Shown piece by piece: positions 7,701 through 64,000 of a stretch of DNA of 64,000 nt. The notes under the pieces are model-generated. The model saw nothing but the letters and a program-made list of their open reading frames with translations. It was not told the origin of the DNA and searched no databases. Origin of the DNA: Circinella umbellata (lineage: Eukaryota; Mucoromycota; Mucoromycetes; Mucorales; Lichtheimiaceae). Location of the stretch: assembly GCA_025093555.1 (NCBI GenBank), contig JAIWNF010000031.1, positions 1 to 64,000 on the forward strand. The letters are read 5' to 3'. The position numbers were made by a program, and so were the translations under genes. The stretch's first letter is position 1, and each line of letters opens with the position of its first letter.

Positions 7701-7714
7701 TTGTTGAAGCAGTA
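7701..7714. repeat. LINE target site duplication, right copy
   Basis: Exact second copy of TTGTTGAAGCAGTA (see 2276-2289), at the 5' end of the minus-strand LINE. Confidence 0.9.
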
Positions 7715-9143
7715 CCTCCTGATTTTGTACTGTATTTTAGGGCGGTAATATTGTCGGTGAAAATCTTTATTAGTGATCCTTTCTGACTTTTTGCATGTAG
7801 CTTTAGCGCGAAATAAATTGCTGTTAATTCTCTTGCGTTTATTGAATATTCTTTTTCTTTTTGGGACCATGGTCCTGTTGCTTGAACTAATCTGGAACTT
7901 ACTCCCCAACCTAAGTCGGAGGCGTCTACGTGAATGATAACTTGGGGGTGTTGTTGGTATTGATCTTCCGGATCATTAGTCCATTCTTCTGCTGCATCCA
8001 TTCTTGCCACCATTGTAGTTCTTTCTTGCTCTCGTGGGATAAAATCATTGGTGCATCCCAATTCTGATGATAATGAGATAACGTTGTTGCCAGATCCCTC
8101 TGCATATGTCGAATATGCAGCAGGGCCTCTCCAATTGCTGGAATCATCGATGTCATCTTCCCCAGTAACCTGGCATACCATCTGCAGTTGTAAGGCTTTT
8201 TGTGTGTGTTCATAGCTTGTTTTATTCGCCCCATTAATTTGGTCAATTTTTTGCTTGGTACATAGATCTTCATAGTTTTCGTATTGAAAATGAAGCCCAG
8301 GAATTCTTGTTGTTGTAATGGAGTTAATACACTTTTTTGATAGTTTATCAGAAATCCTAGTTTTTCCAAATGTGATATTACTTGATGAGTATGTTTCATC
8401 GTTTCTGTTTTTGTTGTGCCCAGGATACAAATGTCGTCTAGGTAGTAGACAAGTCTGAACCCCAATTTCCTCATTGGTTCTATTGCAAACCTCATCAATT
8501 TGCTGAAAACCCATGGACTGACACTCATCCCAAAAGCTAATGTTTTGTACTGGTATACTTTCCCTTGATTTTGAAAAGTCAAATATTTCCTGGATTGTTG
8601 ATGTATTGGTGTTACAACATATGCATCTTTTAAATCTAACTTGCATATAAAGTCGTTCGTCTCTATGATATCTCGTAATGCAGGTACGCCCTCCATCTTG
8701 AAATGTTGGCATTGTATATATTGATTGATTTTTTGGCAGTCTAAAATAGGCCTGCATTTGTTTGTTTCTTGAATAGTAAAGAAGTTTGATAGGAAGTCTG
8801 TATTTTGCGTTGGTGATAATTCGATTATGTCTGCGTGAAGGAATTTTTCCACTGCTTCGTTTGCTGCCATTTGTTCTGTAGAGTTTAAGTGTATTTGGCG
8901 TAATCGCCATGGTATTGGCTTTTTTATGAGGGGTATCCGGTATCCATCTTGTATTACTGATAACGGCCATTGATGATTTGTTGTTTTTTTCCATTGTGGA
9001 ACAAACATTTGAAGTCTGCTACCTGGAGCTATTCCATCGGTAGGGATGTTGTAATTGTTGTTGCTGACTAATTGTTTGGTGAGTTTTGACTGTTGTTGTT
9101 GGTTGTTTGAGAAAAATTGTTGTTGTTGTTGTTGTATCCCCAC
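7715..9143 (-). pseudogene. DIRS reverse transcriptase and RNase H (copy 2), frameshifted
   Basis: The minus-strand frame from 9143 starts MGIQQQQQQFF and contains the DIRS RT blocks CRPILDCQKINQYIQ, CKLDLKDAYVVTPI, LAFGMSVSPWVFSKLM and the catalytic YLDDICILG. It closes at 7926. The RNase H (IIHVDASDLGWGVSS, then FTDNITALKYSTKSGG) continues in another frame. A one-base change in a run of five C's near 7943-7950 explains the shift. The RNase H then runs into the LINE target site at 7714. The protein parallels 20495-22465 closely but is interrupted, so it is inactive. Confidence 0.85.
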
Positions 9144-14139: not shown

Positions 14140-14568
14140 TGTCGTATGGATGGGAAAATAGATAGATAAGGTAAGATAAAAGTAGATAGAAATAGAAATG
14201 GATAACAAAGATAAGTCTTATGAGAATCGATTAAGTCTTTTATTATGAATCAAGTATCAAGATAAAAAGATAAAGATTATTTATATTATTAATTTTAAGT
14301 CTATTTATATTCTTTGGTATATAATTTCCCTATCCTACGATGATGGGTTCACTTGTTGTTTTAGTTTCAGTATATTGATATATGATATGTTTTATATTAT
14401 TATTATTATTGGTATATAATTGTGATTGGTATATTATTATTGTTATATGTTTCATTTGGTATGATTTGCTTAATATGGTATAATAGAGAAGTAACCGATA
14501 TTATTATGTTTGAGTTAGATCGGTGTATATTATTATTATTTATTTTGATAGTGGGTAGGAATATTACA
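14140..14568 (-). repeat. Gypsy 3' LTR (429 bp)
   Basis: Matches 19578-20006 except for three substitutions. Starts TGTCGTATGG and ends GGAATATTACA on the plus strand. The element reads on the minus strand, so this is its 3' LTR. The polypurine tract (minus-strand TGAGAGGGGGTAAT, 14568-14581) lies next to it. Confidence 0.92.
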
Positions 14569-14616
14569 TTACCCCCTCTCAGGTTGCTTCTCATTATTTA
14601 TGTTTATGTTTTGTGA

Positions 14617-17600
14617 TTACTTATTTTGTTTAGATCGTGTAGATCTTCGGAACGAAGTTTCCGAGTTTGAAAATTTTCTTTTGTTTATCATAGTATTTGT
14701 GTTTTTGATATTATTTGTGTTTGGTTCTGTGCCTAATCTTTTCCAATATTCTGATATCGTTTTTTGTTGAGAAAACGTTTCTGCTTTCTGCCACGTATCA
14801 TCCTTTTCTTCATATCCTGCCCATCTTACTTTATATTCATAAATACCGGGTTTATTTCGCGGTGTGCAACAATTGCTTTTACTTCGTATAATTCATCACA
14901 AGGGATTACTTCATCTTGTGAGATTAATTTTAAGCGATTGGGTGGATAGTTGGAAGGTTTTAAATTTCCCATTTCGTCTTTTAGCACATAAGAACCTCCA
15001 CGTGTTTTTCTTACAACGAGATATGGACCATCATATTCGTTTTCTAATTTGCTACCTTTGTCTGTTACTCTAACCATGACATGGCTGTTTGGTGGAAAGT
15101 CAACTATTAAATGTTTCTTATTAAATTTTTGTGCCTGTGCATCAAGTATGGCTTTTACATGTTCATTGATTGCAGGAAAAACAACTGTTTCCATTTTGTG
15201 TATTCTTTTCTTTAATTCATCATATGATAATGGCTCTATGCCTATTTCATTTCTAAAATCTTGGAATGGTTCATTTTTCTAGCAAACATTAATGTGTAGG
15301 GAGCTGTGTCTGTACGCTTTGATATTTTAGCGTTTATAGCTAGTTGAATTCCTGGAACGAAAATATCCCATGACTTGATTGCACCTCTAATGCTTTTTCT
15401 TAAAGCACGCACTGATGTTTGTACATATCGTTCTGCTGGATTAGATCGAGCATGATATGGTGTACTTTTGCGGTGGTAAACACCTGCAGCTTCTGTTAGC
15501 TTTTCCATTATCGAATTGACAAATTCGGATCCCCAGTCTGTGTTGATATAACGTGGGAAGCTAAAATCTTGAATATTTGTATTAATATTTTCGCTACTGT
15601 GTCAGATTGTTTATTTGGTATAGCGCGAAGAATAGTAAATTCGGTACACAAATCTACGGCGACAAGTAGGTAGTTATTTCCAGAAATTGTGGTCTTGAAT
15701 GGACCAGCTAAATCTAATGCCCAGTGATCTGCAGGGAGATAAGATTGGACAGGACGTAATGGATGGTATCCATGTTTTATAATGTTATTTTTAGCACATG
15801 TATCACAAGCACGTACAACACTCAATGCTTGGTGAAAAATACCGTTCCAGTTAAATCCTTGGCTTCGTAAACCTTTTGTCATGACTTCAGCGCCAAAGTG
15901 GCCGAAGTTATGCTGATCTAATAATAATTTATGTCGATCTTCCACTGGTGGTGTGATCATGTCAATAAATGGATTATCAGCATGTAAGGAATGCATATGT
16001 ATGGTATCGCTAGTATTTAAATTTTTATTATTATTATTTAATTGCGGAAGTGAATGTCGCGGTTGTGTTGGAACTGGAGCATTACCCCCTCTCAAAGATG
16101 CGATGTCATCGATGTCTTCATATAATGACTCAATAGGTCTGGTAGGGTATTTTGTAAACCTGGAATATGTACGATTTTCATTCTGGGGTATGATAAAATA
16201 GTTTCTAGCCAGTTAATCATCATGCGATTAGCTATTGGTTGTGTTTGTAACCAGCATAATGAGCGATGGTCAGTATTAAGTTCGAATTCGCGACCATATA
16301 TATATTGGTGGAATTTATGAAGAGCGAAGATGATGGCAAGAAGTTCTTTCTTGGTAGTTGAATAATTTCTTTCTGACTTAGAAAGAGTACGAGACATAAA
16401 AGCAATATGTCGAGTTTCATTTTTTATTATTTGATATAGAAGCAAGCTATGCCAGAGTTGCTAGCATCAGTACCTATGTAAAATTTCTCATGTAAAGATG
16501 GATAACGTAATATAGGAGTCTTGGTTAAAATTTGACGTACAGTGTCAAATGCTTTTTGTTGTGCTGAACCCCATTTTCCTTTGAGTGATTTTTCATGACG
16601 TAAAGCATCAATGGGAGCCATGATTTTAGCACAGTTGGGTATTGATGAGCGGAAATAATTTATTAATCCACCAAATTTCATACAATCTTTGCCTGTTTGT
16701 AAAGGAGGATAGTCTAAAACGGTTGTTACTTTACGAACGTCAAGAGCAATACCTTTAGTCGAGACACTAAATCCTAATAAATGTGTGCTTGCTTGAGCGA
16801 AATTACATTTGTCTAGATTAAGAATAAGATTGGCATCGGTCAATATTTTTATAACTTGTGCAACGTGATCTGCATGTTCGTGTATGTTTTTAGATGCGAC
16901 TATGATATCATCAATGAAACAATTTACGAATGGAAGATCATGAAATAAAATATTCATGACACGTTGAAAAGCACTGCTAAGTGTTTTGAGTCCGAAGCAT
17001 CCTTTTGCATAGGAGTACTGTGTTCCTAAGAACGTAAAGCTAAGTTTTTGTTGGTGTTCTTGTAATACTGGAAATCTCTCAAAAGCAGCTTTTAAATCAA
17101 GTGTGGTAAAAATATTACATCCACTTAGTTTTGAGAAAATTTCTTGGATGTTATTGATAGGATGTCTATCGTTATTTATCAATGCATTGTTAATTCCACG
17201 TGTGTCTAAGCAAAGTCGATGTTTTTTAATTCCATCAGGGCCAGTTGTTTTTGGAACTGCTGTTAATGGTTGATTCCAAGCAGTGTTTACTGGAGCGGGA
17301 ATGATAACACCTTCTTCTAACCATCGATTAATTGTTTCCTTTAATTCAGGAATTAAAGCATATGGTAGAGGGTATTGTGGTCTATATATCGTAATATTTG
17401 GAGGTGTTTCTAAACGAATGACAGCTTCTGGTAAAGGACAATGTGATGTCAGTGGAATGTTTTCATTTTGTTTTAAAAATGGTTTAATTTTGATATGAAA
17501 ATTATTTTGTTCTTCTTTAGAACCAGCAGGTGAATTGTTTGGAGGAGGAACATCGTAACACGTATCATTATTGATTTGTGCATGTGGATTGTCATCCCAT

Positions 17601-19554
17601 GATGTGGCAAGACCATGGATAGAGATACCCAGTTTCGGCATAAGGTCTATACCAATAGTCATGATTATGTTTTCCGAAAGCGGTAAAGCTTCGAAAGTAT
17701 GGGTGACTGTTTTGCCTCCATATTTTAAAAGAATATTTTTTACTTCCCCAACTCTTTTTCCTTCTAAACCTTCTATTGAAGTTATAACAGAACCACAATG
17801 TGTAAATGGTGTAAATGACAATTTATTATTTTTTATGTATTTTAAACTAAGTGATGACTTGTCACAACCCGTGTCAAGGAAAGCCAATATTTGTTTATCC
17901 TGTAAAGTGATAGGAACAAAAATAGCCGAGGGTACGTCAGTGTTTTGCTTAGTTTGATTATTTTTTAAAGAGTGGTTTGTGTTTTGAGTATGTGTGTTAT
18001 ATTGTAATAATGAATCGGTTTTAATAGTACCTTTATTATTGTTAGATGATGTTTCCATAAGTTCGTCATCATTGACGGAAAGCATATCTTCTACTTGTGA
18101 AGACAAGTGAGTCATACGGCTGCGAACCGTGTTATTGTTATTGTTGTTATTGAAGTTCGAACGACGAGCTCGAAGCATCTCCTGGCACTCATGTCCTCTG
18201 ACATACGGAACACGGCGGCAAAATCGGCATAAGTTAATGTTGCTGGGACCAGCACCATTATTGTAGTTACCCTTGTTGGAAGGACCAAAGAAGGAACGAG
18301 AGCCAAATTTGTTATTGTTTTGCCAGTTATTATTGTTGTTGTTGTTATATCTTGACATGCGTAATACTTCCTTCAATTTTTCGCAATCGAAACGAGTGTG
18401 ATTGGATTTCGGGTGCAAGAAGCAAGCATTCTTTTTTGAAGATACAGGTGTCTTGCCTTTTCCTTTGGATTTGTTTTTGTTAATGCGGCGACATTTGTTG
18501 TGTGGTTTTTCATTATCGGAGTCAGATTCTGCTTCATCGCTATCCGAGTTGGAATCAGAAGTACTATTAGTATCAGAAGATGTTTCTGAGGCAGCAAGAG
18601 ATTGGACCATCTGAACTACTGGTTCGAGTTTGTCTGGGATTTGGTCGCCATAATGGTTAGCAACTAATGTCCATGCCTTCTTCCGGTATTGGTGATTAAG
18701 AGAGCACAGATAATTGAAAACGAGATCCTGGTTATTCGGAATGCCATATTTAACAGCATATTCTTGAAGTTTGTTTGAATATTCTCGTAAGGATTGGTTT
18801 CTAGATTGTTTCATTGTACGGATGCGGTGTCGACGATAAAAAATCGTATATGGTGATGTAAAATAGCGTTCGACTTCGGCACGAAACAAAGTCCAGTTTG
18901 TTATTTCAGGCTTTTTCATGGTGGACAGTAACCACGCTCTTCTATTGGCGTCACACGTCATGGGGATCAGTCTTCGCCAATTTTCCTCTATGTTTAGTTC
19001 ATACGCCGCGAGGTGGACCTCAAAATCATCCAGAAATGATTCAGCAGAGTCATAGCTGTCCCGTCTCTTGTCATGTCTATGTTGGCCTCTCAATTGAAAT
19101 GCTGGAAGGTCTTTTGGAACCACCGGAGTTTTCTGTTTATCCTTGGATGAGACCTCTTTAGTGGATGTTTCATTTTTTAACACGTCCTCCATGATCGCCA
19201 AACGTTCTTGGAAATCTTTTCGTTGTTCATTAAGAGCTTGGACTTCCTCAAGGTTGTTTCTTATGGTTGCCAGAGTAATCAAGCTGGTGCAATGAACTAG
19301 CTGTTGACGTAAGTATTTTATGACAACTTCGGGTTTACTGTTTGGACCTAATTGGCTGGGATGAATTGTTCTACACCGTCTTGGTTGTCGGGAATCCATG
19401 GAGCTGCGTCCTCCATCATTGCGTCTAAATTCAGATTATTTGTTTGTTGAGCAAGACCGGCAGTTTCATCATCATTGTTTGTTTGATTGTCATGATTTAC
19501 CACGGGAGTGGATCGATTAATATTGGAGTTATTTGAAGTTGGAGTATTGGACAT
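14617..19554 (-). pseudogene. Gypsy gag-pol: Gag, protease, RT, RNase H, integrase, chromodomain; multiple frameshifts
   Basis: Translation can start at 19554, 24 nt after the 5' LTR. Order of domains: Gag with two cysteine/histidine clusters (CRFCRRVPYVRGHEC is the better one); aspartic protease (FLDTGCDKSSLSL); RT (CLDTRGINNALI, TTLDLKAAFERFPV, catalytic CFIDDIIVAS with F in place of Y); RNase H (GTDASNSGIACF, TDHRSLCWLQ); integrase with HNFGHFG...CDTC zinc site and the DDE residues (LDLAGPF, NTDWGSEF, NPAERYVQ); and a chromodomain (YEVKAIVAHR, then YEYKVRWAGY and DDTWQ). Frame changes occur near 19340, 16435, 16120, 15565, 15270 and 14850. Three look like a duplicated TA or AT, the others like one base lost from a short homopolymer. 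Chromodomains direct integration to marked chromatin. Confidence 0.88.
16081..16094 (-). promoter_or_regulatory. Candidate central polypurine tract of the gypsy element
   Basis: The 14-base string at the 3' polypurine tract (minus-strand TGAGAGGGGGTAAT, 14568-14581) is repeated exactly here, between RNase H and integrase. A second plus-strand priming site in this region is known for some LTR retrotransposons and lentiviruses. Confidence 0.5.
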
Positions 19555-19577
19555 GGTGATAGTTCACAAGAAAAAAA

Positions 19578-20006
19578 TGTCGTATGGATAGGAAAATAGA
19601 TAGATAAGGTAAGATAAAAGTAGATAGAAATAGAAATGGATAACAAAGATAAGTCTTGTGAGAATCGATTAAGTCTTTTATTATGAATCAAGTATCAAGA
19701 TAAAAAGATAAAGATTATTTATATTATTAATTTTAAGTCTATTTATATTCTTTGGTATATAATTTCCCTATCCTACGATGATGGGTTCACTTGTTGTTTT
19801 AGTTTCAGTATATTGATATATGATATGTTTTATATTATTATTATTATTGGTATATAATTGTGATTGGTATATTATTATTGTTATATGTTTCATTTGGTAT
19901 GATTTGCTTAATATGGTATAATAGAGAAGTAACCGATATTATTATGTTTGAGTTAGATCGGTGTATATTATTATTATTTATTTTGATGGTGGGTAGGAAT
20001 ATTACA
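19578..20006 (-). repeat. Gypsy 5' LTR (429 bp)
   Basis: Partner of 14140-14568. It carries the promoter of the element. No TGG-type tRNA primer binding site follows it on the minus strand: the next bases are seven T's, then CTTGTGAACTATCACCATG. Confidence 0.92.
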
Positions 20007-20494: not shown

Positions 20495-22465
20495 ATGTCA
20501 CACAAAATACAAGTCTTACAACCCTCACGTCCTTTGATACCACTATTAGCCTTCCAAAACCCTATTACCAACTCAATAACAAATTACACTATACCATCAG
20601 ATGGAATTCTACTGGGACGTCGCTTACAACATTTTCTCCCCTACTGGAGAGAAATAACAAAACATCCTTGGCCGTCGTTATCAGTTATCCAAGATGGTTA
20701 CAAGATTCAATTCGCAAAAAAGCCGACTCCATGGTGGAACAAGAAAAAATTGACATCAGTAGAAGATCAACACCACATCAATGAAGCAATAAAAAATTTC
20801 TTAAAGGGTGGAATGATAGAAATTTCGCCTACACAAAACCGAAATTTCCTCTCAAAATTCTTTACCATACAGGAAAAGACAAAAAGAAGACCAATACTAG
20901 ATTGTCAAAAATTAAATTCATTTATACAAGTCAAGCATTTCAAGATGGAGGGTGTTCCAGCACTACGAGAGATTATAGAAAAAGACGATTATATCTGCAA
21001 GATCGATTTGAAGGACGCTTATGTGGTGGTTCCAATACGCAGCGACTCTCAAGACTTTCTAAGTTTGGAAAACGAAGGGACGGTATACCGTTACAAATCT
21101 CTCACATTTGGTCTCAGCGTCGCTCCAAGAGTTTTTTCAAAAATTATGCGCTATGCCATAGAACCTTTAAGAAAACTAGGAATTCGAATTATATTTTATT
21201 TGGACGATATATATATCCTGTCAAAAACAAAACACGAGATGAATCAAGTAACTCAACAAGTACGACAACATCTCGAGAGGTTAGGCTTTATAATCAATTA
21301 CAAGAAGAGTATCCTAATACCATCAAAAACCCAAGAATTTCTGGGCTTTACGTTCAACAGCAAGAAAATGATTATATCAGTCCCATCATTAAAGATTACA
21401 AGTTTGATGAAGAGAATTCGTCAATTAATTACTTGTCCAAGGAAAACATGCCATTGGATAGCAGGCTTGCTCGGCAAGATGACGTCAATGATTCCAGCCG
21501 TGGGCGAAGCGCTACTACATATCAGGTACTTACAAAGAGACCTTTCCAAAACATTACAGAGGACGCACCAAGACTGGGACGCAACATGCAACTTATCAAA
21601 TACCAGCCTCCAAGAATTGAGTTGGTGGCAAACATTCACAACACAGAAGAATGGTCTCCCAATTCAAAAATTTCCAGCAACGCCTCCAAAAACGATAATT
21701 CATGTCGATGCATCAAACAGTGGATGGGGAATCAGTTCCGATTTAATCACAACTTCCGGATTTTGGAGCCAGAAAGAAAAAACGCATTCAATAAACATAC
21801 GCGAACTCAAGACGATTTTGTTGGCGATTCAACACCATGCTGTAAAATGCAAAAACTCAACAATAAAAATTTACTCGGACAATATGACTGCTTTAAAATA
21901 TAGAACAAAATCAGGTGGGACAACTTCCATATTATTACAAGACCCTGCCATTCAAATACAAAATTTATGCAACCAATACAATATCGAGGTACTATATCAA
22001 CACATTCCTGGAATTATGAATACACAAGCAGACAAATTAAGTCACCGGAAAAAACCATTCTACGAATCGAACATCCCACGAACGATGTTCAATTACATTC
22101 AGAAAAAATGGGGAAAATTAAAGATAGATGCTTTTGCAGCACACCACAACCACCAACTACCGATATACTGGACATGGACACCAGACCCAGCAGCCAAGGC
22201 AATAGATGCAATGAGTCAAATATGGTTACAAAAGGGAATGTATTTATACCCACCATGGAAGCTAATACCTCAAGTTCTAAAGAAGATTCAAAAACACAAG
22301 ATAAAGAGAGCAGTTCTAGTAACACCACGGTGGCCCAGCCAATTTTGGTTTCCAATGATTCTATGGATGAAACATATAGAACCTCCAATTCTATGGAAAA
22401 TAAATCGGAAATGGTCTCTCACCGCTTGGCTATTATCAACAACCACCGGCTACAAGATGGTATAG
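20495..22465 (+). CDS. DIRS reverse transcriptase, RNase H and MT-like polyprotein (copy 1, 656 aa)
   Basis: This is an intact 656-codon frame starting three bases after the gag stop. RT blocks: KRRPILDCQKLNSFIQ, CKIDLKDAYVVVPI, LTFGLSVAPRVFSKIM and catalytic FYLDDIYILS at about residues 228-237. RNase H follows (IIHVDASNSGWGISS, IYSDNMTALKYRTKSGG, HIPGIMNTQADKLS). The C-terminal part is the DIRS methyltransferase-like region (KIDAFAAHHNHQLP, WTWTPDPAAKAIDAM, YLYPPWKLIPQVL). It would copy the element RNA into circular DNA for the downstream recombinase. It overlaps the recombinase frame at its 3' end. It looks active by sequence, although its partner genes are broken. Confidence 0.92.
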   Translation: MSHKIQVLQPSRPLIPLLAFQNPITNSITNYTIPSDGILLGRRLQHFLPYWREITKHPWPSLSVIQDGYKIQFAKKPTPWWNKKKLTSVEDQHHINEAIKNFLKGGMIEISPTQNRNFLSKFFTIQEKTKRRPILDCQKLNSFIQVKHFKMEGVPALREIIEKDDYICKIDLKDAYVVVPIRSDSQDFLSLENEGTVYRYKSLTFGLSVAPRVFSKIMRYAIEPLRKLGIRIIFYLDDIYILSKTKHEMNQVTQQVRQHLERLGFIINYKKSILIPSKTQEFLGFTFNSKKMIISVPSLKITSLMKRIRQLITCPRKTCHWIAGLLGKMTSMIPAVGEALLHIRYLQRDLSKTLQRTHQDWDATCNLSNTSLQELSWWQTFTTQKNGLPIQKFPATPPKTIIHVDASNSGWGISSDLITTSGFWSQKEKTHSINIRELKTILLAIQHHAVKCKNSTIKIYSDNMTALKYRTKSGGTTSILLQDPAIQIQNLCNQYNIEVLYQHIPGIMNTQADKLSHRKKPFYESNIPRTMFNYIQKKWGKLKIDAFAAHHNHQLPIYWTWTPDPAAKAIDAMSQIWLQKGMYLYPPWKLIPQVLKKIQKHKIKRAVLVTPRWPSQFWFPMILWMKHIEPPILWKINRKWSLTAWLLSTTTGYKMV

Positions 22466-34975: not shown

Positions 34976-35085
34976 TGTATACGTAAAAACAATAATAAAG
35001 TTTAGCATGAGAATTAGTATTAGCAACGTAATAATTTCACTCAATAATACTGTGCATTTTTTTTTCCCTAACAGTCATCATAGTA

Positions 35086-36485
35086 TAGTGAGTATTCGTT
35101 AAACGGGTACTCATTAAACCGGTATTTCGCTAAACCGGTAGTATCCCTTAAATATTTTTTATATACTTAATAAAATACCGGTGATTCGCTAAACCGGTAT
35201 CCGGTGAGCTTTCCAAAATATTTACCGGGTTTATAATAGTATTATTTTATTTCATATAATATAATATTAGTCTTTTTATTACTAAAATCGTTGATACAGC
35301 CTTTCTTTAACGTCATCTCAACTCTTCCCTATGTTTTCAGTTGGCTAAGGTGCATACATTTTAGAATCGAAATTTTTATAAGTAATGTTTCAATTTTATT
35401 CTTTTAAACCACCGCCATTATACTAATTTTTTATCAGGTAATGGAGGGATATAGGATATTAGATGAAAGGTTATATGTTCCACTTGTTCAGTAACTCTAT
35501 AGTGAGATTTATATCATTTTAGAACTTCTAATGACTTCAATTATTTATATAGCATCCGTTACTGAACAATATAATTCAATATATCATTAACATATATTAT
35601 AATAATTTCTAGGTTTTTTATATTACTAGCAGCATCCAAAAACCCATGAATGCTTTCTTGTAAAGAATTTGAATGAATAATCACATTTTAGTTAGTACTT
35701 CTTTTCTTCAACATTTTAACTTTTAAAAACAAATTTGCCTAGCATATCTTTTTTCTTTGCTTTGTGCTCTACATCTTTTTCTTTACTCTTCCCATTTTAT
35801 GATGCTATTTTTATATATTAAATGACAATATCCATATATCCATATACGGTTAAACATATACCCGTTATTTTACATAGATTTGCGAGTGTTTCAACTTTGG
35901 TTCGATCATAAGATATCCCCAGCCAAAGTTGGAAATCACCCACCAACTTTGAGCCTCAAAAAAAAATATTTTCTGTGAAAACCAAACAGACTAATCCACA
36001 AATATTGTTCTCCATGGTTATAACTTTCATTTTTGTGGGTTAGTTTTTGTTTTGGATTTAGTTGTGTTTATTAATGGGCCATTGAAAATAGACAGAAAAA
36101 AATTCGATTCTAAAATGTATGCACCTTACTTGGTTTTCATAGCAGTCAAAAATACACAAATCATTCTTGTCATCAAGAGAAACCCTCTCAACATCTTGTT
36201 AATAACAGTGTCTCTTTTTCGTCAACTTCACACAGATGTTTTTTTCTTCTTCTTCATCTGCCTACTTACGTACTTCTTTTCAACTTTGTCACGTACTTAT
36301 TCATTACCATTGAATACTGTATGTCATCATGTTGCTGATACAATTCATTTTTACTCATTTATTCAACCGGTAACCATGGTCCATATTTTAAACACACTTT
36401 GTTGTAAATTCATTATTAATCCAGTCTCTGGTTATCCATTGCTAATTTAAGAAATACTTTATACTAATTTCATTTTTATCACTAG
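35086..36485. repeat. Dispersed element, copy 1 (TTCGCTAAACCGGT family), interrupted by a mariner-like insert
   Basis: Homologous to 45562-46165 over its whole length apart from the 779-bp insert at 35348-36126. The left part carries repeated T(A/C)TTCG(C/T)TAAACCGGTA motifs in direct orientation. The right part is T-rich and partly open (36128-36450) but has no recognised domain. The right end is degenerate (AAGAAATACTTTA). It is probably an old pogo-like TIR element. Confidence 0.7.
35348..36126. mobile_element. Tc1/mariner-like non-autonomous element (779 bp) with TA target site
   Basis: The terminal inverted repeats begin AGGTGCATACATTTTAGAAT and match over about 24 bp before a one-base difference. 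TA flanks both ends (35346-35347, 36127-36128). The homologous locus at about 45812 (GGCTACTCTGTTT) lacks the insert and carries the empty TA site, which proves the boundaries. There is no transposase inside. Confidence 0.92.
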
Positions 36486-36761
36486 AACATTAGCTCATAG
36501 TAGCATAGCTACATTATATCAACTATCATTGTTTTATCTTATCCGTACAGCTTAGTTGTTTTTCCAGTATATTCTACATATTAGTCATTTCCTTTTTAAA
36601 ACGATAATTTATTTATATTATTAGTAATAAAATAAAAATACAGAAAGAAACCATTCTGAGCAAAAACCCAATGGTGTACAAACACATTATGATCAAATAT
36701 TGGTTATAAAAACTGCAATGCTCTTGGCCGCAACTTTTTTTTTCGCAAAAAAAAAAAAGCT

Positions 36762-41386: not shown

Positions 41387-41576
41387 TTTGCAACACTTGC
41401 ACTAAGTAAAAAAGGTCGTCAATGTTGCCCACTCAATCCGTTATTTTATAATGAGGGAGTTTAAAACGCGGAGTAACATAACGTTTGCTTGCATGAACAA
41501 CAGGAATGAGAACTAAAACAATGAATACTTATTTACACCGAATAATCCAAAGAAATAAATAGAAATATACTATCAT

Positions 41577-42183
41577 TTATCACACGCTCCAAGTGAAAAC
41601 TGTAAAAAAGTGTGGCTATATATCACTTATTACTCCCGGTTTCCTTTTTTGTTACTTATCATCCTGCTTTTTTGAGTGAGATAAATTACTTATCCACCTT
41701 GTCAGTCGTAATTGTGGCGTTATAACGCCCTCGGGAATTCCGTCCCTCGGGCTTGATAAATGCCTTATTACCACTGACGTGGAAGGTAACTAATACATAT
41801 ATGCTTTTTATTATAATGGAGAGGTGGTGTCATAAAACACACAGTGTGTATATATTCATGAGAATTACGCACCCCATAAATTTTGGCGTTACTGACAATC
41901 CTGAAAGTAAAACGTTACGTATCAAACAGGTTTTGAACGCATATAAGTATTAGTTATTTTCCGCATCAGTGGTAATAAGGCATTTATCAAGCTCGTGGGA
42001 AGGAATTCCCGAGGGCGTTATAACGCCACAATTACGACTGACAAGGTGGATAAGTAATTTATCTCACTCAAAAAAGCAGGATGATAAGTAACAAAAAAGG
42101 AAACCGGGAGTAATAAGTGATATATAGCCACACTTTTTTACAATTTTTACTTCAGAAAAATTTCGGAGCGTGTGATAAACTGT
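41577..42183. repeat. Large palindrome or foldback element, two about 200-bp arms
   Basis: The left arm 41577-41785 and right arm 41960-42180 are reverse complements with few mismatches (for example both contain GTGGCGTTATAACGCCCTCG in opposite sense). The unpaired centre is about 175 bp. Within each arm GGCGTTATAACGCC is itself a palindrome. The outer ends read TTATCACACGCTCC. It has no coding capacity and no clear target site duplication. Confidence 0.88.
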
Positions 42184-45043: not shown

Positions 45044-45560
45044 ATAGTGTAATGATCACTATAGTCTATACGTATCTCTTCTTTATCTCTGTCTCCTCTT
45101 TCTTTCTTTTCTGAATTTTATTTACTCTCCACTGTATTTGCATCTTTATCTTATTATACAGTATCTAAATAATATACTCCTTTTTTCTCTTCTCTTCACA
45201 TAACACTACGTATTAGTAGTATTATTGTTTATTATTATTATTATACACAATATTATTATAGTTTCCTTTTATTATCATATGTTCTGTCATAATTTGATTG
45301 TACTTCGCTATTGAATGTTTTTATCATTGATAATCAATATAAATCCTCCCGATTTTTTTAGTTCTATTTTTACTTAATTTTATTTGTTGTCTTTGATCAA
45401 ATACTGTATCTTTCATAAATAAATCTTTAGTTGATTTCCCTTTTATAAGTTTATCAAGACTTTTTCCTTTTCATGGATTCAGACGTAAAATTCCTGAATA
45501 CAAGAACTGCTATATACCATTATTTATAATTATTTGGTCTATTATAACCTTTATACAGTA
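45044..45560. other. T-rich intergenic DNA, nothing recognised
   Basis: No open frame or repeat structure beyond T-rich tracts before the dispersed element. Confidence 0.45.
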
Positions 45561-45561
45561 A

Positions 45562-46165
45562 GTATTCGCTAAACCGGTGCTCGTTAAACCGGTATTTCGC
45601 TAAACCGGTAGTATCTCTTAAATATTTTTTATATACTTTGTAAAATACCGGTGATTCGCTAAACCGGTATCCGGTGAGCTTTCTTAAATATTTACCGGGT
45701 TTATAATAGTATTATTTTATCTTATATAATATAATATCAGTTTTTTATTGATAACATTATTGACACGGCCTTCCTTTAACGTCATCTCAGTTCTTCGCTT
45801 TGTTTTCAGTTGGCTACTCTGTTTCCATACAAATTGAAAATACACAAATCATTCTTGCCGCCAAAAGAAACCTTCTCAACACCTTATTGATAACAGTGTC
45901 TCTTTTTCACCAACTTTACACAGATGCTTTTCTTCTTTCTTATCTGGGTATGTATGTATTTCTTTTCAACTTTGTCACGTACTTATTTATTACCATTGAG
46001 TACTGTATGTAATTATGTTGTTGATACAATTCATTTTTACTCATTTATTCAACCGCTAACCATGGTCAATATTTTAAACACATTTTGTTGTACATTCATT
46101 ATTAATCCTGTCTCTGGTTAACTGTTACTATTCGGTGAATACAGTACACTAATATCATTTTTATC
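45562..46165. repeat. Dispersed element, copy 2 (TTCGCTAAACCGGT family)
   Basis: Starts CAGTAAGTATTCGCTAAACC after TA and matches copy 1 at 35086-36485 without the mariner insert. The end near 46140 (CGGTGAATACAGTA) is a plausible diverged inverted terminus. It carries no transposase. Confidence 0.7.
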
Positions 46166-46740
46166 ACCAAAATATTAGCTCATAATAGCATAGATATATG
46201 CGTATATATAGGTATATTATTGGGATCTTTTGAATTATTGCTGCTGTCGTAGCCTAAAAACAATGTCATTATCATTTCCTTTTTTGAATCGTGTCACACT
46301 ACACATTATAATTATGAGTCAACTTCCTGTTGCCATTCTAGTAATTATCATAGTATATACTTTACTTCAATGACTCACATGTTATACCTCTTCTTGTAAT
46401 TACATGTCACCCACATTATATACGTTATTATCATTATTAGAAAACATATAAATAGTCCTTGCTCATAAAATAATAAAGCGGTATCTTTTTGAATTATATT
46501 TGTTATTCTTTATTATCATTTGTTATATTCTATTACTATTGGCTAAGGTATTGATCCGCCCAATTTATTACGACACTGCTGTTGGTTTTCATCATTCTCA
46601 TTCATATCATCATTACTATAAGATAGTTTGTATCTAAGCAACCGTTTCAGATTGGTCAACTTTGAGGATTCCGTTTGCTTGCATTCTCAGAAACTGTGTT
46701 ACATTTGCTTGTTCAAGAACGAATTCCTAAGTTATATCGT
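46166..46740. other. Intergenic DNA, no gene recognised
   Basis: AT-rich sequence; the open frame at 46628-46867 is antisense to the gene below and is a shadow. Confidence 0.4.
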
Positions 46741-58330: not shown

Positions 58331-59498
58331 AGCTATAAGATGAGCTAATTAACTGATGTATATTTTATTTTAGTCGTTTTCTTATCTTCTCATTCTTGTT
58401 TAAAACGTTTCATACGAGGTAGTGACCATCATGAAGCGATTTGTATTTTTGGCAAACAAGACAGGATCTTTTTAACTACCCATTCAATTAATAAAATTTA
58501 ATACTAGTTGTTTTTCTTTGATCATATTAGATTGTATAACAACAAATAAAAGTGAACATTTAATTCTTTTCACTCTCTTTTTCCACTTTTCTCAAATTAC
58601 CTCGATTCATCATACCTTTTTATATTCTTTGAACAGTGACCATTGATTTCAACAGTGTGTTTCTTAGTGACGAGTAAAACTGAATGACGCTGATAGCCTT
58701 AAAAAGACAACAGCAACAACAACAATATACATACCAGCATGTTTTTTATTATTATCTTAACTCACTTTTACCGAAAAATATAGAAGTATACTAGTGAATT
58801 TACACTACTAGAACGCAGTTGTATTTTTATAAAGCATCGAATGTTTTGTATAGCCAAAAAGGATCTCTCTCCAAGTAACCGTATTATTAGTTTGAGTTTA
58901 TGCGTGCAAGACTATCAACCGACGATGTATGATTAATATGAAAGTATCGTCAGAATAGGGTGAATAAACTTGATGGATGGGTTGGACGGAAACTTAAATT
59001 AATTTGATATGGGTGTACTGAATAACATACTACTATTGACCACACAAAATCACAAGCATATGAACGTTTGGATGTTGAAGCTTGCGATATAATAACAAAT
59101 GTTGGTACCAAAAATTGATTCATTCTTTTTGAGTAATAATGCATTAAATAGATATCATTCATGTCCACTGCTGGTGTTATTTGTGAACCTTTTTTTCTTC
59201 TTGGTAATGTTGTTTACTGTGCTTTATATAAATATGACTAGGGAAAGGGAGTGACGTTTTTATGATAAATATAGTTTACTCTATTTATATATGTTTTCTG
59301 GAGTTCTTTATTTATCAGAAAAAATTACGTCATAAAAAAAATATAATTCACATAAAAAAAAACTGAAGTCAGCGCACAGCATAAATTTTTTTCATGTTAA
59401 CCAGAAACAAAAGAAACAAGTACTTACTTCACCCCAGTTATTTAATACATGAATGCCAGCACATCTTTACTGGCAGTTTTAGTTTTCTTTTATAGCTA
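58331..59498. other. 3' flank of the Fanzor gene, non-coding
   Basis: AT-rich with no gene. A hairpin (TGCCAG/CTGGCA, 59454-59475, 10-nt loop) lies 24 nt after the Fanzor stop. A minus-strand GTAAGT at about 59424-59429 could mark a spliced 3' UTR. No terminal inverted repeat of a host transposon is visible on this side. Confidence 0.5.
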
Positions 59499-62400
59499 TT
59501 ATTCTTCTTCACTCGCAACTTCTTCTCGAACAAGTTCTTCTTCTTGCATTTGTGCATTAATATGTTGGTTTTGATTATCAGGACGTCGAAGGTATAATGG
59601 TCTTGAGTTAGGATCACCATTGCTATTGATATAAGCTGTAAATACTCGTCCAATATTATTTGCAGCGTTAAGATCCCTATCTATTACACGACCTAATACA
59701 TTTTCACCATTCTCGTCAATTCCTCGTTCACAATGTCGACACCATCGATATGGATATACATTACGCCTATAACCAGCTATATATACAATATTATTATTAC
59801 GTATTATTTTAAAAAGAGAAGAGAAAGTATGATCATTTAGTTTTTAAAATATTCAATAGTAGCGTGATATTTTTTCTTTTCAAAAATCATCAAGTTGGAA
59901 ACGATACAAACCAGCACGCACGCGATCAGGACATTGTGATGTACGTGTTAATGGATTATTTTCTTCATCACAGCACCAAAGTATCTTTCTTCCCTTTCTG
60001 TTATTTCCAGTAGTTCTTCTTATTTTTTGTTTTCTATATTTTAAGAAGAAATAGAGTTAGTTTCTCACTTGAATAAAAAGAAAAACAATTAATATGATTT
60101 ATCTTACCGATGATTTGTACATATCCACATATCTCTATCTGGATCACCCCGACTTTGATGAACTAAAGATACTGTACGATTATGACATACAGAACACATT
60201 ATACTTGTGTAAGACTCGTTAGTTAATATAACTAAAGTCCGACGTGCCAACACTGCACGAAATGTCTATATAATAATAAAGAAAAAGAGGTTGAAAAATG
60301 ATTAAAATCCTGAATTTGTATGATATGATGCTTTAATGTATATAAATGGTCACATACTTCCACTGGAGTAGGTTCATAACCCCTCATACTTGGTCTAAGC
60401 CTACCGTCACCATAAGCAACAATGGTTGGCAAGGGTGGCACATATCCAGGTTGTCGTCGTCGTTCTCGACGAACTGCTCGTCGATGATTTTTACGTTCTT
60501 TTTTTGAATGTCTGAAAAAGGTAGGGAGTTGAGGCGGAAGTTGTGGCTGTAAATAACACAAAAAAAATTAGCAATTTCATACCAATGAATTTAATAATAC
60601 AAGTGGATATACATACATCGTTTTGTTCATCCACACCAATTAGCAAGTTGGCTAACATTTCCAAGGCACTACGATGTGCTCCAAAATATCGCATACGCAT
60701 TTCACGATGGCGGTAATGAAAATTAAAGTTTTCATATATTCTATAGTAAAGAATGTTAGCTATTATGAAGTGTTGCGTGCAATATAGACTTTTTTTTTAA
60801 AAAAAGAAAAAAAAAACTACTCACTCTGTATGAAATTCACCTATCATACGAATGTATTGAATGAAATTTCCAGTTGTAGTCACTGTTGCTGGAACAAATC
60901 CCATCATATGGTAAAGCAGATGTAAGTCGGTAGCTTCTCGACCACGTAATGCTTCTTCAGCGACGTATTGACGTCGGTTTTCAAGCTCTCTGTATTGAGA
61001 CCACTTGAACAAAGATTGGACTCTATTATTTAGGTAAATAGTTATAATATAATTAATGTATGCCAATTATAATAAATTATTATCTTAGTTAATATTACTA
61101 CATATTAAAAGAAAAAAAAACATACTGATATTGTCCGTTATGTAATTTTATTGTGTGCTGTTCACGTTGTTGATCTGTTTCCAGCGCATCCAGTGTATCC
61201 ACAGCAGTGACCAAAGAACGAATGCCTATTTGTTTTATTAATATAGATAATTTTTTAAATAACAGTAAGTACACATTTGCTCTTTGGTAAAGCACAGTTA
61301 TAGCAATGTAACAATAAGTACGTTTATTACTGTACCTGGATCAATATATACTAAGCGAGAGTCAGCGGCGCGTTGTTGAGTTAATCCCTGAGGATTTTTA
61401 GAGAGATGATACATCCCACGTCGCCATGCTGTCAAGTCTTGATTACGAGGATATCGTACAACTTCTCTAGAGGACTGTGGCAATCGCTCTAAAATCATAT
61501 ACGATTAAAGTTAAAAAAAAAAATAATGGGATATAAACATTTTGGTACAACATCAAAATAAAGTTGTAATAAGCAGTATATTTACCACCACGGATAGTTG
61601 CGATTGGTCTTCTGAACGTCAGTGACACCCCAACACCATCAGTTTCAATATAATTGTTGAACAAATACCGTTCACGATGTTGAGATGGAAACATACCGGC
61701 TTCTATAAATTAAAAGGACACTCGTGCTATTCATCAGTTTTTGCTACGCCTTGAAGAAAATCATTGAAAAAGATCTTATTTCAAATAAAGAATACTTGCC
61801 GTCAGTTTCCCAATATGTACAGCGGCGAGGTATAACGTGATTCAAATTAAATATATCCTCCCATATTTGTTCCATTTGAACAGAAGAAAGTGCTCGAAAG
61901 GCAGCAATTGTGATTAGTCGATGTTGTCGTCTTCCTCTTGGTGGGTTAGGTGACTAATAGCATGTATCCAACGTTTATATTAGAAGATACTCTGTTTAAA
62001 ATATACATTGAATATTAATAATACAATAGAAAATGCTTACCATGATATGAGGAGGCATGTGGGCGTTAGGGTACTGAATTGAATAAATTTTTAAGATATG
62101 ATATAGTGACCGTTGATCGATTGGCATGTAAGCCACTTGATGCTTTGCAACAGGAAGTACAGTCCACCGTCTTACACCATTTTCTTCTATTTGGTTCAGT
62201 AAATATACTAAATAAGTAGGCAATCGTTGATAAATGTTTACTTGTTGCACGCTACTTGGCCTTTCAATGATACTTTGGGCATTTTCATCAGCAAACGCTG
62301 TTTGAAAAGCTTGATGATGTTCTCTGCGTGATGTAAAAGCAAAAGAAAAGAAAATAAGTTCGTTAAATACATAGAATAGTATTATACAGTAAAAAGTATC

Positions 62401-63956
62401 AGGTACTGTAATAAAAAAAAAGTGACACTTACGCATAATAATTATTTACTCTGTTTCGGATGGCAGCGGGAAACATAGAAATAATATTGTTCGGGAGATG
62501 ATCAGATCGGTCCACGAGTTGCTTGTAAATTTTATTTGCTGTTAGATTAAAAAAAAGAAAGATAATAAGAAGTTATTATTTATTAATTTCAGCAATGTTA
62601 ACAGTAAACATAAATTATAATAGCAAAGCATGATTTAATACGTTACCCAAAGTATTAGGTGATTGTCGTAAGTTTATATTAAGCTCGGTAACCAATCCAT
62701 TAATGTAAGATAACCATACTCTTTTCAAAAAGTTAGGAATATTCATAAGCAAGTGATTACGGGCATCTATTATAAATGGTAATAAATGACAAAAATTAGA
62801 CTCTTGTATAGGTAACAAAATAAAATATAGAATATTAAGGGACGACGATAAAATTCAACAATACATACTTGTCATCGCTTTTCTGGCAAAATTTCTTCTA
62901 ACTTCGGCACGTAAACCAGGATCCCATGCAGGTACTGCGTAATAAGCTAATAGTATTTAATTAGAGCCTATTACAGTACATAATCATGCACTATTTGGTA
63001 ATTCATAAAAACAAACGTAAAGCTTACCTTGACCATTATTTTGTACACGAGCAGGATTAAAGTGATTTGTAAATGTATTATCAAGTTCAGGGTAAGGTGT
63101 TGGCTAAACAATATATGTATATATGTATATGGTTAATAAGTTATTCATGTTAGGCATGTGGACAGTCAATACATAACTCTATAAACAAAACTTACTCGAG
63201 CAAGAGCTTCACCAGGTGGTGTCGTCACCAAATGAAAGGCATTTTCCCAAAAGTTTTGATCTGTTAATACAGGACGAGTGACATTGGCAGGATCTTCAAC
63301 AGATCGTAACACATGTAACGTTACAAGGTTCATTGCATCCCGTCGAAGAATAGTATATTCTTCTGCAAGTCGACGTATGAAATTCTATAAAAAAAACCAC
63401 AATTCAGTAAATACTTTTCATTATATATTTGCACGTGAAGTTTTAACTACAACAAAAAAAAAATGCATATATAATTACCAACATATCCGGCGTACCAGGT
63501 GGTGGCTGCCTTGCACCTGCCAAATAAGGATTTTCTAGAATGGTTTGGAGTTTACATTTACGTGTAACAACTCTGTTACGTCTTCTTGCTGCTCTGTGAT
63601 TATCGGGGAAAATTTCTCTCAAATATGCTCTAGCTCGTTCTCGTCCTGATAAAACACATAATAAAAATAAGTAAATACATCTAATATTGTTATATTGATA
63701 TGCGTGTGTGTATAACATAAAGTACTACATTATCCAAATACTTACGTTCCGCCAATGTTTCCGGTCTTGGATTTGGACCCCGTGTTACGGGGAATACCAC
63801 CTCTTGGTCTTCAATAATATCAGCATCAGATCGATTACTTAGAAATGAAAACCCTGACCCGTTTGAATTAAATGAATTTATGGAATCGATTGACATGGCA
63901 TCCTCAGTGTCATCATCACCTACGCTGTCGGCACTATCAATATCCATAGGCTCCAT
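59499..63956 (-). CDS. Fanzor protein: eukaryotic TnpB-like RNA-guided nuclease (940 aa, 18 exons)
   Basis: Exons: 63746-63956, 63479-63645, 63196-63384, 63028-63103, 62869-62946, 62647-62766, 62433-62538, 62041-62323, 61800-61953, 61586-61702, 61336-61488, 61126-61225, 60825-61022, 60617-60740, 60358-60546, 60108-60265, 59912-60033, 59499-59776. All joins keep the frame (2823 nt). Introns are 70-135 bp, GT-AG except one GC-AG (61703-61799). Fanzors use a guide RNA to cleave DNA with a RuvC fold. RuvC-I is VYIDPGIRSLVTAV (D550). An arginine-rich helix (KERKNHRRAVRRERRR) precedes IVAYGDG (D739). ILTNESYTSIMCSVC holds the relocated glutamate (E772), the TS pair and C779/C782. The second C-x2-C is C861/C864, then DRDLNAANNI with D883. 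The D550-to-TS spacing of about 225 residues fits the Fanzor signature. The acidic N-terminus (MEPMDIDSADSVGDDDTED) may begin further upstream, because TTCTCCAG before the ATG resembles an acceptor site. No inactivating lesion is seen. Confidence 0.9.
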
Positions 63957-64000
63957 GGCTGGAGAATAAGAACAAGTAGCAATAAAGAAAATGTAAGAAA

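Follow-up and report, generated by a model that had tools for sequence, protein, structure and literature searches.

Fanzor1 genes were described in 2013 in MuDr-superfamily elements of the Mucorales, namely ROr-4, PBl-3 and MCi-4 of Rhizopus, Phycomyces and Mucor (Bao and Jurka; PMC3627910), for which that description gives 9-bp target duplications, MuDR-like inverted repeats and no MuDR transposase. SpuFz1 of Spizellomyces punctatus is described as consisting of one open reading frame; its 2.1-kb locus has inverted repeats of 30 nt and no transposase, and its target-adjacent motif (TAM) is CATA (Saito et al., 2023; PMC10432273). The same account gives the TAM TTAAN for Fanzor1 of Guillardia theta (GtFz1), whose locus seems to be without inverted repeats, and presents the role of Fanzors for hosts or transposons as an open question. 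PpFz1 of Parasitella parasitica is reported to use ATN as its TAM and to carry an additional FRI domain, which binds cyclophilin (PMC11423790). Here we analyze a Fanzor gene in a 64,000-nucleotide stretch (the window) at the start of contig JAIWNF010000031.1 of Circinella umbellata. The original prediction for this locus, made from sequence alone, had remarked that only a few fungal Fanzors have been studied, which is fair, although the structure of the Mucorales protein PpFz1 has already been solved (PMC11423790).

In the collection of open-access papers that we searched, we found no publication that names both Fanzor and Circinella, and none that combines Mutator-like elements (MULEs), TnpB and eukaryotes. 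Our reading, to which we give a probability of roughly 0.7, is that the window contains a gene for a predicted Fanzor1-type RNA-guided nuclease carried by a MULE-type DNA transposon, with the sequence of steps proposed below. We refer to contigs by short handles; C136 carries the window, and C136a denotes the window copy of the element.

A Fanzor1-type gene inside a multicopy element

Re-splicing the raw sequence reproduced the predicted gene model, with 18 exons joining in one intact frame of 940 codons (Table 1). Its 17 introns (70–135 nt) comprise 16 of the GT-AG type and one of the GC-AG type, intron 9, and the GC-AG pair is also present in all seven other copies that cover that position. 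GC content is 40.4% in exons, 25.4% at third positions and 23.1% in introns. The exon model is not a product of chance, because at least seven further near-full copies in the genome have the same exon blocks. In addition, 12 of the 17 exon junctions recur in two separately annotated Circinella proteins, P0001 of C. minor (522 amino acids) and P0002 of C. umbellata (682 amino acids), both of which are gene predictions and incomplete as models; junctions 6, 7, 12, 15 and 16 have no counterpart in these two predictions.

The Fanzor hallmarks listed in the original prediction are all in place: D550 within the IDPG motif (which is interrupted by intron 11), the glutamate E772, the two cysteine pairs CSVC at 779 and CRHC at 861, and RDLN at 882. 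E772 lies six residues upstream of the zinc finger, whose first cysteine is residue 779. The combination of DPG with an alternative glutamate has been called a 'molecular fingerprint' of Fanzors (in the account of PMC10711439), and a four-cysteine finger followed by RD, as found here, has been described as a Fanzor motif (PMC3627910). A basic stretch encoded by exon 15 is a possible nuclear localization signal.

In profile searches the protein matched Pfam family PF07282 with an E value of 4.3e-4, under Pfam's own cut-off (20.8 versus 26.3 bits), and the OrfB_IS605 family PF01385 had no match anywhere in the genome. A profile (A3) built from the window protein, P0003 of C. umbellata and P0004 of Phascolomyces articulosus, in whose alignment the DPG motifs line up and E772 is invariant in all three proteins, found GtFz1 (PDB 9cer) as the top match in the PDB at an E value of 1.8e-4, with SpuFz1 at 0.21; a second profile (A2) matched SpuFz1 at 0.54. 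A PDB search with the single sequence found neither of these Fanzors nor any other, no family matched in an NCBIfam scan, and two database searches with the window protein gave no full-length match, the one made with residues 735–905 giving one Circinella relative only. Judged from its motifs and the profile match, the window gene is a genuine, intact Fanzor, which we file as a Fanzor1.

A search of the genome with the protein gave 131 matching stretches, with 49 of 111 candidates scored, so that all copy counts are lower bounds. Beside the window copy there are at least seven near-full copies (C136b, at C136:73.5–78 kb, and those on C195, C101, C174, C5, C197 and C15), with fragments elsewhere. 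The original prediction had seen no transposon end on the 3′ side of the gene; we found one inside the window at position 59299, 200 bp beyond the stop codon, flush in at least eight copies with unrelated flanks (the first bases are identical in C136a, C136b, C5, C197, C195, C189, C101 and C142). The 189-bp 3′-side end has 20 matches genome-wide. Looking for copies and ends beyond position 64000, as the prediction had suggested, placed the right boundary of the window element at about 66923, and this right end has 11 matches genome-wide. From end to end the element measures 7.6–8.4 kb in the four copies measured, a spread due largely to a minisatellite of 31–32 bp units that precedes the Fanzor start and has 5.6 units in C136a against 26.3 in C136b. 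By eye the left and right ends resemble each other weakly, and when the left end was searched by BLAST in the right side, all matches were at chance level.

The other copies retain their introns wherever these are covered and not deleted, from which it follows that the element moves as DNA; retroposition was rejected as the copying route on the same grounds. Introns carried along with the element in this way do not indicate residence at this locus. What we observe is an element with fixed ends that is multicopy and recently amplified, not a single-copy, immobile gene.

A MULE-type transposase on the strand of the Fanzor gene lies between the minisatellite and the element's right end. It matches PF10551 with an E value of 1.5e-4 (22.6 bits against a cut-off of 27.6) and FAR1 with 1.1e-3 (20.1 bits against 28.1), both scores being below Pfam's thresholds. 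The same in-frame TAG follows shortly past the second catalytic aspartate in seven of eight loci (C101, C136a, C136b, C174, C5, C37 and C197). The eighth, one of two loci on C57, where no Fanzor is among the matches listed, has a tyrosine codon at this position and a stop five codons on. The linked transposase thus looks dead in all eight loci examined. Other MULE-type matches in the genome are 29–72% identical, some of them without a stop in the matched stretch, and such related transposases, putative in that a complete gene is established for none of them, could act in trans. At five more distant MULE loci no element ends with the terminal inverted repeat (TIR) pattern were found. The host element is of MULE type, a non-IS607 eukaryotic transposon.

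Insertion sites and a predicted target-adjacent motif

Several copies are bordered by target duplications, which for MULEs are about 8–11 bp long. C136b carries ATGATTAA on both sides, C197 carries CATCATAG and C174 carries (G)TGATCCA, while AGAGTGTG stands both to the left of C101 and to the right of C37, which points to one insertion split over two contigs by recombination or misassembly. The duplication is 8 bp long in C136b and C197, or 11 bp counting TGG, and 7–8 bp in C174; the 8-bp repeat can be read as 11 bp because the element begins with TGG and the target continues with TGG, and the matched flanks of both C136b and C197 overlap by 11 bases. The joined flanks of C136b and of C197 occur nowhere else in the genome, and no empty sites were found for three insertions.

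The right flanks share a motif at a fixed distance: N8-TGGG in C136b, C5, C101, C197, C37 and C46, N7-TGGG in C174, and CGTG in C136a. TGGG is therefore present at seven of eight Fanzor-family right ends, against a frequency in the window of 0.002 per base (binomial P 2e-15, allowing three offsets). Six of the eight ends share contig and strand with a Fanzor copy, and five of these six have TGGG; in C197, about 6–7 kb of partly unread sequence lies between the right end and the Fanzor copy, and the contigs of the C37 and C46 ends end or begin inside the element. None of four control ends with the same TIR, on contigs with no Fanzor among the matches listed (C57, C11, C179 and C113), has TGGG. 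Fisher's test gives P = 0.010 for 7/8 versus 0/4, 0.048 for 5/6 versus 0/4, and 0.024 for 7/8 versus 0/3 when C113 is dropped. These ends came from a pattern search with 17 matches at up to two mismatches (three for the reversed control), of which the 13 with no or one mismatch were counted as 12 ends, two C57 ends with identical flanks being counted once. Three ends with two mismatches (C46:592717, C42 and C143) have no TGGG at the same distance and were excluded as too weak; the fourth such match, on C175, also lies outside the count.

On the left side, CCCA before N8 was present in none of nine flanks. The motif is thus one-sided, and all seven insertions share the same orientation to it. 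Read in gene orientation, the empty site is CCCA-N8-flank, and an RNA transcribed through the 3′ end would read ...CUCCA-N8-flank. This would put CCCA directly 5′ of the stretch that a guide would match, the position expected of a TAM, and we accordingly predict, from the insertion sites, a TAM near CCCA. The Spu-1 elements offer a precedent for deriving part of a TAM in this way, as they are described as having a conserved CA just outside the 5′ repeat and a measured TAM of CATA (PMC10432273). A side observation concerns the degenerate copy on C15 (L020, C15:5871-9155), whose 3′ end reads CCCCA, whereas CTCC or CTCCA stands there in 10 of the 11 others in the alignment, the remaining one having lost the end; the predicted TAM would in that case stand at the copy's own junction.

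The 200 nt between the stop codon and the element end occupy the position that corresponds to the omega-RNA of SpuFz1, described as lying 3′ of the gene (PMC10432273). Positions 59299–59520 fold better than shuffled sequences (z = -2.5; 3 of 200 shuffles were equally good), which is compatible with a guide RNA and is not proof of one. For other Fanzor1s the target duplication has been predicted to lie within the guide-RNA scaffold, according to PMC10711439; the variable 8-bp duplication found here would fit a scaffold badly, and suits a guide that begins at the duplication. A scan for promoters and terminators of bacterial type found nothing, its models being bacterial and not meaningful for this fungus.

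The nuclease gene is intact in several members of the family. Of 10 other copies or fragments, 4 (C136b, C5, C174 and C197) keep the complete 2823-nt frame together with every one of the 17 splice-dinucleotide pairs, giving five intact copies with the window copy included, with coding divergence from it of 0–0.4% and unchanged motif residues. The remaining copies are damaged to varying degrees: C101 and C195 have two one-base gaps each, and C195 is also cut by a contig end; C15 is degenerate, with 12 stops in frame; C142, C189 and C124 are incomplete, and in C189 and C124 some splice sites are deleted or changed. Compared with the window copy, the ratio of nonsynonymous to synonymous divergence (dN/dS) is 0.21–0.36 for C5, C101, C174, C197 and C195 and 0.88 for C15. 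Tests against neutrality gave P = 0.12 (C5), 0.050 (C101), 0.050 (C174), 0.021 (C197), 0.0006 (C195) and 0.35 (the decayed C15), in comparisons that share history.

Competing explanations

The steps that we propose would run as follows. A related MULE transposase would move the element in trans. From the 3′ 200 nt would come a guide RNA with a scaffold reaching to the element end and a guide supplied by the target sequence that flanks it, and Fanzor would cut the unoccupied or vacated target beside its TAM (predicted 5′-CCCA), after which repair from the occupied copy would restore or spread the element. Two features would protect an occupied site: no more than 8 nt of target stay next to CCCA after insertion, and the end of the element itself has TCCA in place of CCCA. 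A stronger form of this proposal, which we put forward tentatively as a possibility rather than an expectation, is that Fanzor decides the site and orientation in which the transposon persists, only CCCA-adjacent insertions being kept or copied through RNA-guided cutting of the empty site. If that were so, the insertions of a eukaryotic cut-and-paste element with a dead transposase of its own would follow a pattern set by a nuclease motif and not by the transposase, and the homing role proposed for Fanzors would be visible in a genome sequence.

A number of observations weigh against these proposals. Only four control ends could be compared, and that on C113 is doubtful because its flank resembles further TIR-like sequence. 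The window copy has neither a target duplication nor TGGG, and C5 and C101 also lack a target duplication of their own. Moreover, C136a is identical to C136b in the Fanzor coding sequence (0 of 2823 differences) and has small indels of the transposase region in common with C5 but not with C136b, so that the window copy looks mosaic, with a C136b-like Fanzor and a C5-like transposase half. For the candidate guide RNA, the core of the 3′ stretch is more conserved than the introns in only one of four diverged copies (C124, P 0.014, and not C15, C142 or C189), and covariation is nearly absent (RNAalifold on 12 copies showed a double change in 1 of 32 pairs). Finally, introns diverge as little as nonsynonymous sites, which weakens the case for selection; because introns are equally slow and the comparisons share history, we do not claim purifying selection on Fanzor.

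That equal divergence also speaks for a reading in which Fanzor is inert cargo and TGGG simply the target preference of a trans-acting MULE transposase on the element's two unlike ends; such a preference would count against a TAM. The transposition features that we see require only a MULE transposase, and some copies (C101, C195 and C15) have broken Fanzors. On the other hand, five copies retain an intact Fanzor frame with unaltered motif residues, whereas none of the eight loci examined has an unbroken linked transposase, and the absence of TGGG from the four related MULE ends means that a general MULE preference was not seen, in a tiny sample. On balance we find an inert passenger doubtful. 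The view of the original prediction, that the gene is a settled Fanzor with acquired introns and a host role, can point to the intact frame, the 17 introns and the basic stretch; it is contradicted by near-identical copies with unrelated flanks, sharp ends, target duplications and the linked MULE transposase remnant, and the same introns occur in the other copies, which together make long residence or domestication very improbable. The copies and their chimeric flanks might instead be largely assembly artefacts at a repeat, which would leave their true number and arrangement uncertain: contigs C195, C37 and C46 break off or start within the element, a single duplication is common to C101-left and C37-right, and the window copy is mosaic. 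We consider this unlikely, given that for C136b, C197 and C174 both ends are present and flanked by a duplication particular to that copy, that the joined flanks of the first two are unique, and that C57, C15, C189 and C124 are clearly diverged. Some joins may be false, but the family itself is real.

A Fanzor1-type nuclease carried by a MULE-type transposon remains our preferred reading: the family is young, several of its nucleases are intact, the linked transposases are broken, and a motif lies where a TAM would sit. This reading makes the concrete prediction of a TAM near CCCA and a guide starting at the target duplication, and it offers a natural system for asking whether a Fanzor shapes the insertion and spread of a transposon.

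Neighbouring elements and comparison with described systems

Table 1. Features of the Fanzor locus, in window coordinates.
Feature	Position	Strand	Remarks
Fanzor-MULE element, part in window	59299..64000	-	Continues to about C136:66923, 2.9 kb past the window; from block boundaries shared with copies
Fanzor gene	59499..63956	-	18 exons, 940 amino acids
Exon 1	63746..63956	-	
Exon 2	63479..63645	-	
Exon 3	63196..63384	-	
Exon 4	63028..63103	-	
Exon 5	62869..62946	-	
Exon 6	62647..62766	-	
Exon 7	62433..62538	-	
Exon 8	62041..62323	-	
Exon 9	61800..61953	-	Followed by GC-AG intron 61799-61703
Exon 10	61586..61702	-	
Exon 11	61336..61488	-	Predicted catalytic D550 of DPG motif at 61342-61340
Exon 12	61126..61225	-	
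Exon 13	60825..61022	-	
Exon 14	60617..60740	-	
Exon 15	60358..60546	-	Basic stretch KERKNHRR..RRERRR
Exon 16	60108..60265	-	Alternative glutamate E772 at 60217-60215; first CxxC from 60196
Exon 17	59912..60033	-	
Exon 18	59499..59776	-	Second CxxC from 59741; D883 of RDLN at 59675-59673; stop codon 59501-59499
3′ noncoding stretch, stop codon to element end	59299..59498	-	Candidate omega-RNA scaffold, by position as in SpuFz1
Element end, 3′ side of gene	59299..59332	.	TGGAGTTCTTTATTTATC..., flush in at least 8 copies
Flank that would supply the C136a guide	59279..59298	-	From flank sequence and analogy with SpuFz1

Elsewhere in the window, positions 14140–20006 hold a long terminal repeat (LTR) retrotransposon with a 1002-codon frame on the minus strand and direct repeats of 429 bp (14140–14568 and 19578–20006) that are 99.3% identical; from its reverse-transcriptase and integrase motifs we take it to be Gypsy-like. 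A 0.3-kb piece, 90% like this LTR, directly adjoins the Fanzor copy on C15. Further inverted and direct repeats lie at 7706–8993 and 20645–21927, at 35084–36514 and 45554–46199, and at 41576–42179, and a tRNA scan of the window found none.

The genome contains two other genes of this kind. One (L003, C134:1001332-1004550), annotated as P0003, is a second, intron-poor Fanzor1-type gene that is apparently broken over three frames and lacks zinc-finger cysteines; the other (L001, C200:169642-172806) is a Fanzor2/TnpB-like gene with the motifs IDPGVRTP, TCSSCG and FDRDLNSGKNI and the highest PF07282 score in the genome. Rearranged element ends were also seen. On C127 (520956–524000) two Fanzor-element 3′ ends, inverted, enclose about 3 kb; the one at 520956 keeps the noncoding stretch with upstream sequence unrecognisable as exon 18, and is perhaps a ghost-like derivative. 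The right end on C174 is split by an insert of ~0.4 kb (L043, C174:126440-127060) that resembles a miniature inverted-repeat transposable element, with inverted repeats AGGGTGTCTCAAACATC. Two MULE right ends with identical flanks, C57:697887 and C57:720463, are inverted and 22.6 kb apart, which suggests a large inverted duplication, real or from assembly.

That Fanzor1 genes occur in MuDR-type elements of the Mucorales was already known, and what the Circinella element adds is a testable TAM prediction. Like ROr-4, PBl-3 and MCi-4, it combines a Fanzor1 with a MULE/MuDR-type element of a Mucorales fungus and with target duplications; unlike them, in a comparison made by description, it has a broken MULE transposase, weak and unlike ends, duplications of 8 or 11 bp and a one-sided TGGG. 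Among solved structures, GtFz1 is the best match of profile A3, over a stretch that includes the DPG motif, and PpFz1, likewise a Mucorales Fanzor1, can be set beside the Circinella protein by description. With SpuFz1 and its element Spu-1, as described by Saito et al. (2023), it shares the multicopy Fanzor1 element, the noncoding stretch from the stop codon to the 3′ end and, in the case of Spu-1, a conserved motif just outside the 5′ end, whereas it differs from SpuFz1 in its 17 introns, its length of 7.6–8.4 kb, its weak ends and its predicted TAM of CCCA.

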